A stretch of 64,000 bases of DNA from Kocuria salsicia (GTDB taxonomy: Bacteria; Actinomycetota; Actinomycetes; Actinomycetales; Micrococcaceae). The stretch's first letter is position 1. Each line of letters starts with the position of its first letter. Under the pieces are notes generated by a model. The model made no database searches, was not told the origin of the DNA, and saw nothing but the letters and a program-made list of their open reading frames with translations. The stretch covers positions 744,001 through 808,000 of the forward strand of contig NZ_VELE01000001.1 of assembly GCF_007681555.1 (NCBI RefSeq). Reading direction: 5' to 3'. The translations under genes and the position numbers were made by a program. This document shows positions 3,485-51,089 of this stretch, piece after piece.

Positions 3485-4630
3485 TCAGCCCCGCTTGTAG
3501 AACGGCAGCGGGGTCTGCTCCACGTCCACCGCCCGGCCGCGGACGTCCACGACGCCCACTGTTCCGGCCGCGATCTCCTCGAGCGCGTCGGTGGCAACCA
3601 GCGCCATGGCCACCGGCCTGCCGAGGGTAGGCGAAGGCAGTCCGCTGGTGACCTCGCCCACGGTGCGCTCCCCCACCACCACGGTGTAGCCGGCGCGCAC
3701 GGGCTTGCGTCCTAGGCCCTGCAGCCCAATCAGGGTGCGCTGAGGTGTGGTCTCGAGCATGGCGGTGAGCGCGTCCCCGCCCACCGTGACGGTGCCCGCC
3801 TCGCCCTTCTTCCGCAGAGCAACCTCCACGAGCTTGCCGAGCCCGGCCTCCACCGGGGAGATCTCCGTGGAGAGCTCGTGGCCGTAGAGGGGCATCCCCG
3901 CCTCGAGCCGCAGGGAGTCCCGCGCGGCGAGACCCGCGGGACCGATGGGGGCGTCCTCGGTGCCCAGCCGCTCCGCGGTGGCCAGCAGCGCGCTCCACAG
4001 CTGCGGGGCGTGCTCGTTGTCGCAGTAGAGCTCGAAGCCGTCCTCACCGGTGTACCCGGTACGGGCGGCGAGCACAGGCACCCCCGCACACTCGGCCGGG
4101 ACGCACGCGTAGTACTTCAGCGCAGCGACGCCCTGTGCGGGGGTCAGCTCGGTGGCCTCGAGCACCTCCAGGGCGCGCGGGCCCTGGACCGCGATCAGCG
4201 AGGTCCCTGGACCGCGGTCAGTGACGACGACGTCGAATCCCTCGGCGCGCTCCTGCAGAGCCCGCACCACGGTCTCCTGGTTCCCGGCGTTCGGCACCAC
4301 GAGGTACCGCTCCTCCCCCAGCCGGTAGGTGATCAGGTCGTCCAGGATCCTGCCCTGCTCGTCCACGATCAGGGAGTACTTGGCCCGGCCGGACCCGACG
4401 CCCGAGAGCACCCCCACGAGCGCGTGGTCCAGGAACTCCCCCGTCTGGGGACCGGTGACCTCCACCTCCCCCATGTGGGAGAGGTCGAAGATCCCGGCCC
4501 CGCGGCGCACGGCGTGGTGCTCGGCGGTGTCGCTCGCGTAGCGCACGGGCATCGACCAGCCGCCGAAGTCGGTGAACCTGGCCCCCAGCTCCTCGTGGGC
4601 CTCATGCAGTGCGGTGTGCCGCTCGCTCAT
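3485..4630 (-). CDS. gcvT: Glycine cleavage system T protein (aminomethyltransferase)
   Basis: Tetrahydrofolate-dependent aminomethyltransferase of the glycine cleavage system. It releases ammonia from the aminomethyl-lipoyl H protein and makes 5,10-methylene-THF. It has 381 residues, the normal size. The N-terminus carries the family signatures FTDFGGWSMPVRY and FDLSHMGE, and the middle has RTGYTGEDGFE. The ATG at 4630 overlaps the gcvP stop (ATGA), so translation is probably coupled to gcvP and under the same upstream riboswitch. gcvH and lpd are not in the window, so the complex must be completed elsewhere. Confidence 0.97.
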   Translation of the reverse strand: MSERHTALHEAHEELGARFTDFGGWSMPVRYASDTAEHHAVRRGAGIFDLSHMGEVEVTGPQTGEFLDHALVGVLSGVGSGRAKYSLIVDEQGRILDDLITYRLGEERYLVVPNAGNQETVVRALQERAEGFDVVVTDRGPGTSLIAVQGPRALEVLEATELTPAQGVAALKYYACVPAECAGVPVLAARTGYTGEDGFELYCDNEHAPQLWSALLATAERLGTEDAPIGPAGLAARDSLRLEAGMPLYGHELSTEISPVEAGLGKLVEVALRKKGEAGTVTVGGDALTAMLETTPQRTLIGLQGLGRKPVRAGYTVVVGERTVGEVTSGLPSPTLGRPVAMALVATDALEEIAAGTVGVVDVRGRAVDVEQTPLPFYKRG

Positions 4631-7576: not shown

Positions 7577-7795
7577 CTCTGTTCCACAACCTGAGAGTTT
7601 TCGCCGACGCGCGGTACTGCGCGCACGCCGACCTGCCCCGACGGCGTCCGCGACCACGCGGGTCACGGACTCTCCAGAGTGGCCTGGGGCGGCGGTACGG
7701 GTGCCTGAGAGGTTCCCGGGGAGGGTTTGCTCCTTCGGCGATGGCGCCGCCGCGGACCTCCCAGCCCCCGACCCGCCATGCTCTCCCGCCGCACC
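7577..7795 (-). promoter_or_regulatory. Tandem glycine riboswitch upstream of gcvP
   Basis: The minus-strand leader shows two gcvT-type glycine aptamers in series. Aptamer 1 (about 7685-7795) has the conserved GGCGGGAGAGCAUGG opening, then GCCGAAGGAGCAA and CCUCUCAGGCACC. Aptamer 2 (about 7577-7680) opens ACUCUGGAGAGU and ends GGCGAAAACUCUCAGG, then closes with ACAGAG. The short linker and the placement 53 nt before the gcvP start fit an ON switch for glycine catabolism. Aptamer 2 is more diverged, with CGUCGGGGCAGG in place of the GAAGGRGCAA core. Confidence 0.92.
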
Positions 7796-7876
7796 GTGGC
7801 GGCCAGATGGTCAGGGCCAGTTTCGCACATCACACCGAGGACGGGCGCCACCGCGACGGGCGCCCCCGGGCACGAC

Positions 7877-47885: not shown

Positions 47886-48788
47886 TCAGCGGTTGCCGTA
47901 GAAGCCGCCGGAGCGCGCCATGTTCTCCAGCCGCGCCACGCGGTCGTCGGTGCTCGGGTGGGTGCGGAACAGTCCGGAGACCGCCCCGCCGCGGAACGGG
48001 TTGGCGATCATCAGGTGGGAGGTGTTCACGAGCCTCTGGTCCTGCGGGTCCATGGGCCTCTGGTTCGCCCCGCCCTCGATCTTGCGCAGTGCCGAGGCCA
48101 GGGCCAGCGGGTCCCCGGTGAGCTTGGAGCCGTCCTCGTCCGCGTCGTACTCGCGTGTGCGGGAGATGGCCAGCTGGATGACCGAGGCGGCCAGCGGTGC
48201 CAGGAACGCCATGAGCAGACCCACCAGCATGTTGCCGCCGCCGCGGTTGTCGTTGCCGCGCCCGCCGAACAGGGCCGCGAACTGTAGCATCTGCGCAGCG
48301 GAGGTGATCAGCCCGGCCACGGCTGCCGCCACTGACGAGGTGAGGATGTCCCTGTTGTAGACGTGCATCAGCTCGTGGCCCAGCACGGCGCGCAGCTCGC
48401 GCTCGTCGAGCATCTGCAGGATCCCCTCGGTGCAGCACACCGCCGCGTGCTCCGGGTTGCGTCCTGTGGCGAACGCGTTGGGGCTCATGGTCGGGGCGAT
48501 GTAGAGCCGCGGCATGGGCTGCCCGGCCGCCTGCGAGAGCTCGTGCACGATCCGGTACATGGCGGGCGCCTGTTGCGGGCTCACGGGGACCGCGCGCATG
48601 GATGCCAGCGCCAGCTTGTCCGAGTTCCAGTAGCTGTAGGCCGTGCCGGCCAGGCCGATCACCCCGAACAGGATGATGAAGAATGAGCTGCGCGTGGCGC
48701 CGGCGATGACCCAGCCGATCCCGAGCAGCACCGCCCACATCCCGCCCAGCAGTAGTGCGGTCTTCACGCCGTTGTAGTGCCGGTGCAT
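47886..48788 (-). CDS. htpX: Zinc metalloprotease HtpX homolog
   Basis: Membrane M48 protease for quality control of membrane proteins. It has 300 residues. Two N-terminal helices ([19 protein letters not shown] and [13 protein letters not shown]), then the zinc motif [12 protein letters not shown], two more helices and the third zinc ligand in [17 protein letters not shown]. The C-terminal [20 protein letters not shown] is conserved. GGAGGAG lies 7 nt upstream of the ATG. In M. tuberculosis htpX neighbours grcC/menJ; here those genes lie 12 kb away. Confidence 0.95.
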
Positions 48789-48918: not shown

Positions 48919-50571
48919 TCACAACGGCAGGCAGAGGACGATGTCGCCGAGGACCAGCGAGATGGTGCAGTCGCTGGGCGAGGGGCTCGGGTTAGGTTCC
49001 CCGGGCCTGGGATCGGTGCTCGGAACCACCGTGACCTGCGACTCGCCGCTCGGCAGCGGATCACCGGTCTGGACGGGGTCCGGCGACACCGCCGGGGAGG
49101 GCTCCCCCACCGGCTCACTCGGATGCGGGTTCTGCGGATTCAACGGGATCTGCGGATCGGGAAGCAGCGTGGTGCCGGGGAGTTCCGAGAGGCCCGCACC
49201 GGGGGGATTGATGACGATCGGCAGGGACGGCTCGGCCGCCGGACGCTGCGGTGCGGCGTCGTCGACGTCCTGCACGGCTCCCGCGTCCTGGTCGGTTCCG
49301 GCACCCTCCGCCTGCTGCGCGGCCGCGGCGTCGTCGTCACCGGCGTCTGCACCGGCCGCACCCTGGGCCTCCGCAGCGCCCGCCGGGCGGTCCCCGCTGG
49401 CCGGTGACCGCCCACCCCCGGGCGCCACCCCGTCACCCGCGGTGGCATCGAGTCCCTGCGTGGGTTCGGCGGCCACGGAGACCGCGTCCCCTCCGCCCGA
49501 GTTGGTCGCGGCCACGATCCCCACGGCCGCGGCGGCAGCGACGAGGACGGCCGTGGCCGCGACGGCGAGCCCGGCCCCGGAGCCCACCAGTGAGGCCACC
49601 CCACCGGCGGAGGAGGCGGCGCCTGCGCCAGAGGAGCCGACGGCGGTGCTTCCCTCGGACACCGAGGCGCCCGCGGCGCTCTCCGCCGCCACCCCGGCTC
49701 CGGCCGCCGCACCCGCGCCGAGCAGCGGCGTGCCGGCGAGTGCCGTGGCCAGGTGGGAGCCCTCGGCGCCCCACAGGGGAAGTCCGGCGAGCACGGGGAG
49801 GATCCAGCCGCGCAGCCCGAGCCCCAGGTCCTGCAGCTGCAGGTACTCCGCCGTGCAGCGGCGGCACCCGTCCAGGTGGTCCTGGACCGCCTTGGTGCGC
49901 GGCGGGGTGAGCGCACCGCGGGTGAAGGCGCCGAGCTGGGAGGAGAACTCGCGGCACTCCGCGAGCGTCCGCGCGGAGACGTGCTCCTGCACGTAGGCGG
50001 CGCGCAGGCCCTCGCGTGCCCGCTTGCCGAGCGCGGAGACCGCGTTGGGCTGGGCGCCGACGACGCCCGCCACCTGGCGCGGCCTGCGCCCCTCGACCTC
50101 GAGGTACCACAGGATCTCCTGCCAGCGCTCGGGCAGGGACGCGAACGCCCGGGCCACCACGGCGGAGTCCACCTGGCGCACCACGGTGTCGTCGAAGAGC
50201 TCCACCCGGTCCAGCGGCCCGTTCGGCTGGGGGTCCTCGGGGCGGGTGCGGGTGAGCTCGTTGGCGCGGTCCGCCGCCAGGCGCGAGACGGCGGTCACGA
50301 GGTAGGCACGGAGGAACTCCCGGGGGCCCTTGCCCTCGCGCAGCAGCCCGAGCACACGCGTGAACGCCTCCGAGACGAGGTCCTGGGCGTCCGACTCGGT
50401 GCGGGAGTGCATCCGGGCGACGGCGAGCGCGGCTCCGCGGTGGCGCTCGTAGAGTTCCGCGAACGCCGCGGAGTCCCCGTTGCGCACAGCGGTGAGCAGC
50501 CGTTCGTCACTGGCGGGCTGCTCGTCCCGGCCCTCGGGACGCGCGAGGCGTGGGGCTGCGCTGTGTGTCAT
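48919..50571 (-). CDS. ECF-type sigma factor fused to a zinc-finger, transmembrane anti-sigma-like region
   Basis: 550 residues. Residues about 22-105 are sigma-70 region 2 ([31 protein letters not shown]) and about 125-195 region 4 ([39 protein letters not shown]). A zinc-finger-like motif follows: Cys206, then HLDGCRRC (H232, C236, C239), as in ZAS anti-sigma factors. Hydrophobic segments are at about 252-268 and 333-355. The rest is an extracytoplasmic Pro/Asp/Ser-rich stalk, ending [17 protein letters not shown] with two cysteines. So sigma and its likely inhibitor/sensor are one chain. The start ATG at 50571 has AGAGAG upstream; an earlier ATG at 50613 is possible. Confidence 0.85.
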
Positions 50572-51089
50572 GAGGCTCTCTGGCAGAAGAAGGGGGGTGC
50601 TGGTTGCCTCCATTGTGTCAGCACTCGCGGGGAAGCGGCAGTGCGTTTGCTCCATGCGGGGCCGGGAGAACGGTCGGGGGTGGAGCCGGCCCCCACCGGC
50701 TCCACCCCCGTCTCCTAGCACCGCTCTCTCCCCCCTGGCCGGGCAGCCCGCCTGGCCGAGAGTCGCTCTCGCCCACCGTGTGCCACGCGATGTGTCCCCG
50801 TACGTGAGGTGGCACCGGCTCGTCGGCCCCGAGCGATCGGACCGTCCGGAATCCCGTGCGGCCCGCACGCGATTCACTGTGTAGACAGACGGGGAGGGAA
50901 AACGTGACGCGGGATCCGGAAACTTTTTTTCACGGGCCCGCCCGAGCCTGTCCGGGGCCGGGAGGGACGGCCCCGGGCCCCCTCCACGAAGCCGGGCGAC
51001 GTCGTCGTCCCCGCCGCCGTGCCGACCCCCCCGAGGCCCCGGAAGGCGCGGAAATCCGCGGAATCCTGCGACTTAGGACACACTAACTA
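50572..51089. other. Long divergent intergenic region with an orphan hairpin
   Basis: 518 bp between the sigma and fur genes, without a supported CDS. It holds a perfect 14-bp hairpin (50676-50709, GGGGGTGGAGCCGG and complement, 6-nt loop) that ends no recognised gene, and a T7 run at 50924-50930. The hairpin could end a short unannotated RNA or sit in the sigma leader. Confidence 0.55.

Follow-up and report, generated by a model that had tools for sequence, protein, structure and literature searches.

Organization of the locus and integrity of the reading frame

The window, by which we mean the whole stretch of 64,000 nucleotides that was analysed, contains on its minus strand a gene for a protein of 550 residues in which an ECF sigma factor, a ZAS-type anti-sigma domain, a membrane helix and a long stalk follow one another in a single chain. 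The gene is preceded by a candidate structured RNA and directly followed by a gene for a membrane protease. The features are as follows.

48919..50571, minus strand: whole fusion gene (ECF sigma, ZAS anti-sigma, membrane part, stalk), 550 residues, stop codon included
50257..50454, minus strand: sigma region 2, residues 40-105 (Pfam PF04542, Sigma70_r2; E 5e-7, over cut-off)
50011..50157, minus strand: sigma region 4, residues 139-187 (PF08281, Sigma70_r4_2; 15.7 bits, under the cut-off of 25.7)
49855..49956, minus strand: ZAS zinc motif, residues 206-239, with C206, H232, C236 and C239 (PF13490, zf-HC2; E 1.1e-7, over cut-off)
49756..49836, minus strand: conserved hydrophobic segment, residues 246-272, read as a putative anti-sigma helix 4
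49576..49755, minus strand: variable linker rich in Ala, Gly and Ser, residues 273-332, probably cytoplasmic and of low identity to six relatives
49504..49575, minus strand: transmembrane helix, residues 333-356, placed by hydropathy and by a charge pattern (N-terminus in, C-terminus out) over 85 relatives
48979..49503, minus strand: stalk, residues 357-531, rich in Pro, Ser, Thr, Gly, Ala, Asp and Glu and by its composition presumably disordered
48922..48978, minus strand: tip C535-x11-C547, residues 532-550, a predicted beta hairpin
47886..48788, minus strand: M48 membrane protease gene directly downstream of the fusion (Pfam Peptidase_M48, E 7.4e-32)
50670..50930, minus strand: candidate structured non-coding RNA of about 260 nt, upstream, between the fusion gene and fur

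The frame at 48919-50571 translates into 550 residues free of stops, and its start ATG lines up with the ATG of five related fusions (L006, L007, L008, L010 and L011). GC at the third codon position ranges from 0.80 to 1.00 across ten blocks of the gene and is highest there in nine of them; in block 386-440 the first position is higher (0.95 vs 0.80 at position 3). The NCBIfam model for ECF sigma factors, TIGR02937, spans residues 36-191 and passes its cut-off of 42.9 with 56.8 bits (E 2e-15), and the Pfam scan of the protein gave no match for sigma region 3. With TIGR02937 and PF04542 both over cut-off, the protein belongs to the ECF sigma factors, which have regions 2 and 4 without region 3. 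It is equally a ZAS protein (C-x25-H-x3-C-x2-C), as evidenced by PF13490 over cut-off and by zinc ligands that are invariant in 17 aligned fusions. Past residue 239, no Pfam domain was found in the protein at E values up to 1. The preliminary description of this locus, a single chain of 550 residues with sigma regions 2 and 4, a ZAS zinc motif, a stalk and a two-cysteine end, is thus borne out by Pfam, TIGR02937 and the translation.

Conservation and spread of the fusion

The fusion of an ECF sigma factor with a ZAS anti-sigma domain, a membrane helix and an outside stalk is confirmed to be real and conserved. It was matched in 24 of the 27 same-genus genomes searched, the window's own included; those without a match are G002 (79% complete), G020 (76%) and G008 (99%). 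A sigma plus zinc profile built from the 17 aligned rows matches 42 of 120 family genomes (E up to 1e-20) and 103 of 296 class genomes (E up to 1e-25), both figures including some sigma-only matches. A search for related loci in genome contigs yielded a single distant sigma match, which was set aside. A survey of relatives had been proposed at the outset, and it shows the fusion to be widespread in the genus and present in genomes of the family and the class. On the evidence of these sequences the parts are shown to be retained in one chain across most of the genus. The two findings named beforehand as fatal to a fusion were not encountered in the window's genome: there is no frameshift, the frame being intact and matched in same-genus relatives, and no spare zinc anti-sigma gene was found, the other zf-HC2 match directly adjoining the other ECF factor.

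The 17 aligned fusions were chosen from 27 extracted, with six degenerate copies and four sequences close to retained rows omitted. Invariant among them are the four zinc ligands and the sigma residues D64, W150 and R184-A185-R186. The RAR motif of sigma 4 and the first zinc ligand stand 22 or 23 residues apart in 71 of the 77 callable rows (of 97), and the first zinc cysteine and the histidine lie 26 positions apart in 74 of these; the 20 rows that could not be placed include most of the NPCBM clade described below and degenerate copies. Given this constant spacing between RAR motif and zinc ligand, the sigma and zinc domains seem to form a single unit. When the window protein is compared with six close relatives, identity is 85-93% for the sigma domain, 69-78% over residues 201-245, 74-89% over segment 246-272, 40-54% for the linker (273-328), 52-74% for the membrane helix and 23-38% for the stalk, so that the sigma domain is the best conserved part within the window's clade. 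Against the nearest relative, G005, the sigma part shows 45 synonymous and 12 nonsynonymous codon differences in 181 codons.

Eleven sigma-only frames were inspected for a zinc-like frame on the same strand, in the stretch between 300 bases ahead of the sigma frame's end and 900 bases past it; ten have none close downstream, and L143 has one. In two loci outside the genus, L130 and L131, the sigma and zinc parts lie in different frames, which looks like a broken fusion. In L131 (genome G035, around 3776-3972) the sigma frame stops at an apparent short repeat, and the zinc and membrane part continues in another frame. Note that the N-termini of distant relatives are uncertain, their start codons having been picked by distance.

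Six genus genomes (G003, G009, G014, G015, G017 and G022) carry a degenerate sigma core. With one copy per genome aligned, R184 is lost in all six and D64 in five, and the four zinc ligands are retained in all six. These copies, at L025, L027, L028, L030, L031, L032, L053, L054 and L139-L142, would represent fusions whose sigma domain is decaying while the anti-sigma and membrane parts remain intact, and the fusion protein may do something else in these genomes. Four of the six contain a tandem fusion pair.

Hydrophobic segments and membrane topology

Hydropathy analysis yielded one clear spanning segment at residues 335-353 (2.54) and a weaker one at 249-267 (1.37). In 85 proteins longer than 300 residues in which a zinc motif could be recognised, some of them truncated at locus ends, Lys plus Arg outnumber Asp plus Glu by 108 to 26 over the 15 residues that precede the helix, and over the 15 that follow it the figures are 53 and 180. 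As basic residues thus precede the helix and acidic residues follow it, the N-terminus should be inside and the stalk outside. The window protein itself has no charge in the 15 residues before the helix and one acidic residue in the 15 after it.

Of the one or two membrane segments originally proposed, the first therefore stands, at 335-353, and the second, at 249-267, reads better as the fourth helix of the anti-sigma domain. A second transmembrane helix was rejected in view of the charge pattern, the extracellular-type domains of relatives and the fit to anti-sigma helix 4. Class I anti-sigma domains are described as three helices binding sigma 4 and a fourth binding sigma 2 (PMC7406223), and it is the position of segment 246-272 after the ZAS motif, matching this description, that leads us to read it as helix 4. 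According to the same source, the residues through which helix 4 makes contact tend to be poorly conserved within a group, and the high conservation of 246-272 counts to some degree against this reading, or else points to a special role of the segment here. A single-sequence AlphaFold2 model of residues 1-300 was poor (mean pLDDT 47.2, pTM 0.28).

The stalk and its two-cysteine tip

The only cysteines of the window protein are those of the zinc motif (206, 236 and 239) and the two at its end, 535 and 547. All seven complete members of the window's clade, the window protein among them, share a C-x10-12-C pair that accounts for every cysteine outside the zinc region; the eighth member, L012, is cut by a contig end and was omitted from this count. 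The 1313 stalk residues ahead of the pair in the clade contain no cysteine. The second cysteine lies 1-6 residues before the last residue in five members, 35 before it in L038 and 42 in L039. Ten other genus fusions with an intact sigma domain have a tryptophan-rich end instead of the cysteine pair. Over all 17 fusions, tryptophan and cysteine together make up 59 of 765 residues in the last 45 positions and 10 of 4424 in the stalk body, with the bounds of the latter set by hand and the totals summed from per-protein figures.

AlphaFold2 folded the last 40 residues, modelled alone, into a two-stranded hairpin with strands at 535-541 and 544-549 (mean pLDDT 68.4, with 73 and 83 for the two final blocks of ten residues). 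A face-to-face disulfide at the tip was considered and rejected, as the predicted strands do not put Cys535 opposite Cys547. With the two residues out of register in the model a disulfide is a guess, and the tip is possibly closed by one. When 18 codons of the tip are aligned with G005, 11 differences are seen, every one of them nonsynonymous. The stalk end, suggested earlier as a possible sensor, is conserved in kind, yet fast-changing in sequence.

A C-terminal domain of extracellular type was found over cut-off in eight of 20 relatives scanned, namely NPCBM in three and, in one each, DUF642, I-set with Ricin_B_lectin, DUF11, Big_6 and Ricin lectin; one further relative has a Ricin lectin match under cut-off, and 11 have none. 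From this variety we infer a constant cytoplasmic module with an outside part that is swapped among fusions and that, in the window's clade, would be pared to stalk and tip. Anchoring to the wall through an LPXTG motif was rejected for the window protein, which lacks one; past residue 250 the motif occurs only in L012, L053 and L105 among the extracted proteins, and by eye in none of them is it followed by an ordinary terminal sorting signal.

Neighbouring genes, proteases and other sigma factors

The M48 gene directly downstream of the fusion, which we take to encode an HtpX-like protease (htpX), occupies this position on the same strand in all 17 same-genus fusion loci examined and was not found beside the fusion in three loci of other families. 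Fusion and M48 genes lie within 15 kb of each other in 17 of 35 family genomes compared, always on the same strand with the sigma gene first. This count used 45 of 60 sigma rows, the other 15 being second copies, fragments and weak rows; with them G035, G371 and G407 dropped out, leaving 35 of the 38 genomes that have both genes. As yajQ (DUF520), trxA and other neighbours are also retained in most same-genus loci examined, the adjacency is weak evidence of joint function, and HtpX was rejected as a dedicated partner because general synteny explains the linkage equally well.

The genome contains one frame for an M50 site-2-type protease, seen as two partial matches within one open frame. A search of the genome for an S41/Prc protease gave no match with a model that matches ten of 14 control genomes, Corynebacterium glutamicum not among them, and a search for PrsW gave none with a model that matches four of the 14. 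A Prc-gated tip, with the stalk trimmed by S41 as for IutY, and PrsW as a site-1 protease were both set aside for lack of these matches in the genome.

Across the genome of 3.06 Mb, TIGR02937 scores over its cut-off in three places and weakly, below the cut-off, in five more. The top match is a frame of 849 residues, probably the principal sigma factor; next comes another ECF-like factor and then the fusion, which makes two ECF-like factors over cut-off besides the putative principal sigma factor. There are two zf-HC2 matches, one in the fusion and one in a frame of 132 residues directly downstream of the other ECF-like factor on the same strand. This second pair lies outside the window (G000, contig C11, 391807-392527). 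With each zf-HC2 match tied to an ECF factor, the genome would have one ordinary sigma/anti-sigma pair and one fusion.

A candidate structured RNA upstream

The candidate RNA between the fusion gene and fur ends in a long GC hairpin and has a fold z-score of -3.3. A sequence search located it in 12 of 59 related genomes, every one of them from the same genus; in G018 there is only a weak match of 50 bases on another contig, and in G011 the RNA lies on a contig apart from the fusion. In an alignment of ten sequences, 21 of 66 pairs are changed on both sides, vs 13.1 in shuffles, of which none of 500 reached as high a count; slid controls gave 4-9, and further pair types were not above the shuffles (184/500). 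Rfam assigns no family at its gathering score to this stretch, the best match being the Scr6106 hairpin with 26.3 bits vs 52.5, and a covariance model of the candidate found no full match in 18 other loci searched. Identity with Ms1 was rejected, as the flanking genes differ from the Ms1 synteny given in PMC9130861. Elsewhere in the window, at 7683-7798 on the minus strand, a glycine riboswitch aptamer scores over the Rfam gathering threshold.

Relation to known fused sigma factors

The novelty implied in the preliminary description does not hold, since fusions of groups ECF48, ECF52 and ECF53 and a proteolysis model for them are already in print (PMC8999054, PMC5826349). PMC8999054 places these three together as fusions for which activation by proteolysis is expected, IutY being the one case characterised by experiment, and the proteolysis model for fused sigma factors also appears in PMC5826349. 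ECF52 is described there as sigma, zinc finger, transmembrane region, Pro-rich extension and carbohydrate-binding domain, with SCO4117 of Streptomyces coelicolor, studied genetically, as its first studied member. Section 16 of PMC8999054 presents SCO4117 as the best understood of the actinobacterial fusions; in its treatment of the protein, PMC5826349 leaves the protease and the post-translational control open. Domains for glycosyl hydrolysis and carbohydrate binding are predicted in part of the ECF52 and ECF53 proteins (PMC10766802).

Like ECF52, the window protein combines sigma regions 2 and 4, a zinc finger, a transmembrane helix and a Pro-rich extension in one chain, but it carries neither NPCBM nor any other stalk domain, and ends in a short two-cysteine tip instead. 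Over 260 alignment columns it is 36% identical to the NPCBM fusion L085, and on this basis we consider it homologous to ECF52-type proteins. NPCBM is present in all three scanned proteins of a clade of seven rows, and in the two loci read, L085 being one, a TetR-family gene adjoins the NPCBM fusion upstream. These NPCBM fusions probably come from Streptomyces genomes. AtrA is a TetR-family protein. The arrangement agrees with that of SCO4117, which is located downstream of atrA (PMC5826349).

In the tree, the window clade (11 rows) and the NPCBM clade (7 rows) are each split off by one branch with 100/100 support, and a joint clade of the two is rejected (AU p 1.15e-44), for clades that were named after the first tree had been seen. 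The tree left out 16 of 93 rows with degenerate sequences or long branches, and SCO4117 itself lies outside it. The window protein is thus placed outside the NPCBM clade of SCO4117-type proteins by the AU test, and Pfam finds in it no C-terminal carbohydrate-binding domain of the ECF52 kind. Among the open-licence literature no paper on the window's clade was found by title or start of abstract; a group number may exist.

Further likenesses are drawn from descriptions only. ECF53 and ECF48 are fusions with a zinc finger and one to two membrane helices (PMC8999054). IutY of Pseudomonas putida (ECF243) joins a sigma factor to an anti-sigma part bound at the membrane, and proteolysis sets the sigma factor free; the protein belongs to an iron-starvation system using Prc and RseP (PMC8999054), whereas the genome studied here has no match for a Prc-type S41 protease. 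The fusion kind as such is already known in actinobacteria, and what appears unusual in the window's branch is the bare stalk with a small tip. Class I (ZAS) anti-sigma factors, of which we take RsiW and RskA to be examples, share by description the zinc motif and a hydrophobic segment at the place of the fourth helix. They are encoded by separate genes, whereas in the fusion the ZAS domain comes directly after sigma 4.

A probable membrane-tethered sigma factor and its alternatives

Taken together, the window protein is probably a membrane-tethered, self-inhibited ECF sigma factor. The domain order, the spread of the fusion, the invariant residues, the constant spacing and the N-in, C-out charge pattern argue for this, as do the extracellular-type domains of relatives and the conventional separate pair that serves the other ECF factor. 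For signal, protease and mechanism we propose the following, on sequence grounds. In the resting state the built-in class I domain, made up of three helices bearing the CHCC motif and of the helix at 246-272, would cover sigma regions 4 and 2 and so block binding to RNA polymerase. Helix 333-356 would anchor the complex at the membrane, with the Pro-rich stalk extending into the cell wall and ending in a small folded tip. An envelope signal would alter or remove the stalk, and the chain would then be cut near or in the membrane, for which the M50 site-2-type protease and the neighbouring M48/HtpX are candidates; destruction of the anti-sigma part would set the sigma domain free. In the earlier picture of a tethered sigma factor with its own anti-sigma part, the fusion, the membrane helix and the stalk hold up on Pfam, TIGR02937 and hydropathy, and release by proteolysis or by a conformational change is plausible.

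Proteolytic release is favoured because it is reported for the fused IutY and expected for ECF48, ECF52 and ECF53 (PMC8999054). The same reports, together with the M50 frame in the genome, speak against a switch without cleavage, in which the whole protein would stay at the membrane while movement of the stalk or release of zinc opened the anti-sigma part and the tethered sigma domain bound RNA polymerase; we consider this unlikely, in spite of a tight sigma-anti-sigma junction (22-23 residues in 71 of the 77 callable rows, out of 97) and of the missing S41 and PrsW matches, both of which would suit it. Less credible still is a vestigial or non-regulatory sigma part in what would be chiefly a membrane protein that spans the wall. 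The six degenerate genus genomes point that way, with R184 lost in 6/6, D64 in 5/6 and the zinc ligands kept in 6/6, but in the window's clade the sigma domain, 85-93% identical to six relatives, is the most conserved part, and its differences from G005 are largely synonymous (45 vs 12 in 181 codons). That two separate genes, the usual state of sigma and anti-sigma and that of the genome's other ECF factor, were joined by an error of sequencing or assembly is practically out of the question, refuted as it is by the match in 24 of 27 same-genus genomes and in other families.

Several observations nevertheless count against the tethered, self-inhibited sigma factor that we prefer: the model of residues 1-300 is poor, region 4 stays under the Pfam cut-off, S41 and PrsW, the two site-1-type proteases to be expected, are without a match, the htpX adjacency is maybe plain synteny and the sigma part has decayed in six genus genomes. 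As a long shot, the tip might act as a mechanical or redox sensor. In this view a cysteine-free stalk without a carbohydrate-binding domain would be capped by a small hairpin, which a disulfide or, in sister clades, the packing of tryptophans would keep closed; unfolding of the hairpin would permit trimming of the stalk, upon which the neighbouring M48/HtpX would cut on the cytoplasmic side and free the sigma domain.

A fused and tethered sigma factor needs no partner gene, as sensor, inhibitor and activator are contained in one protein. The window's clade offers a simple case, with one ordinary pair and one fusion in the window's genome and a minimal tip in which two residues are open to change, and if the tip is the sensor, what such stalks read becomes directly testable.
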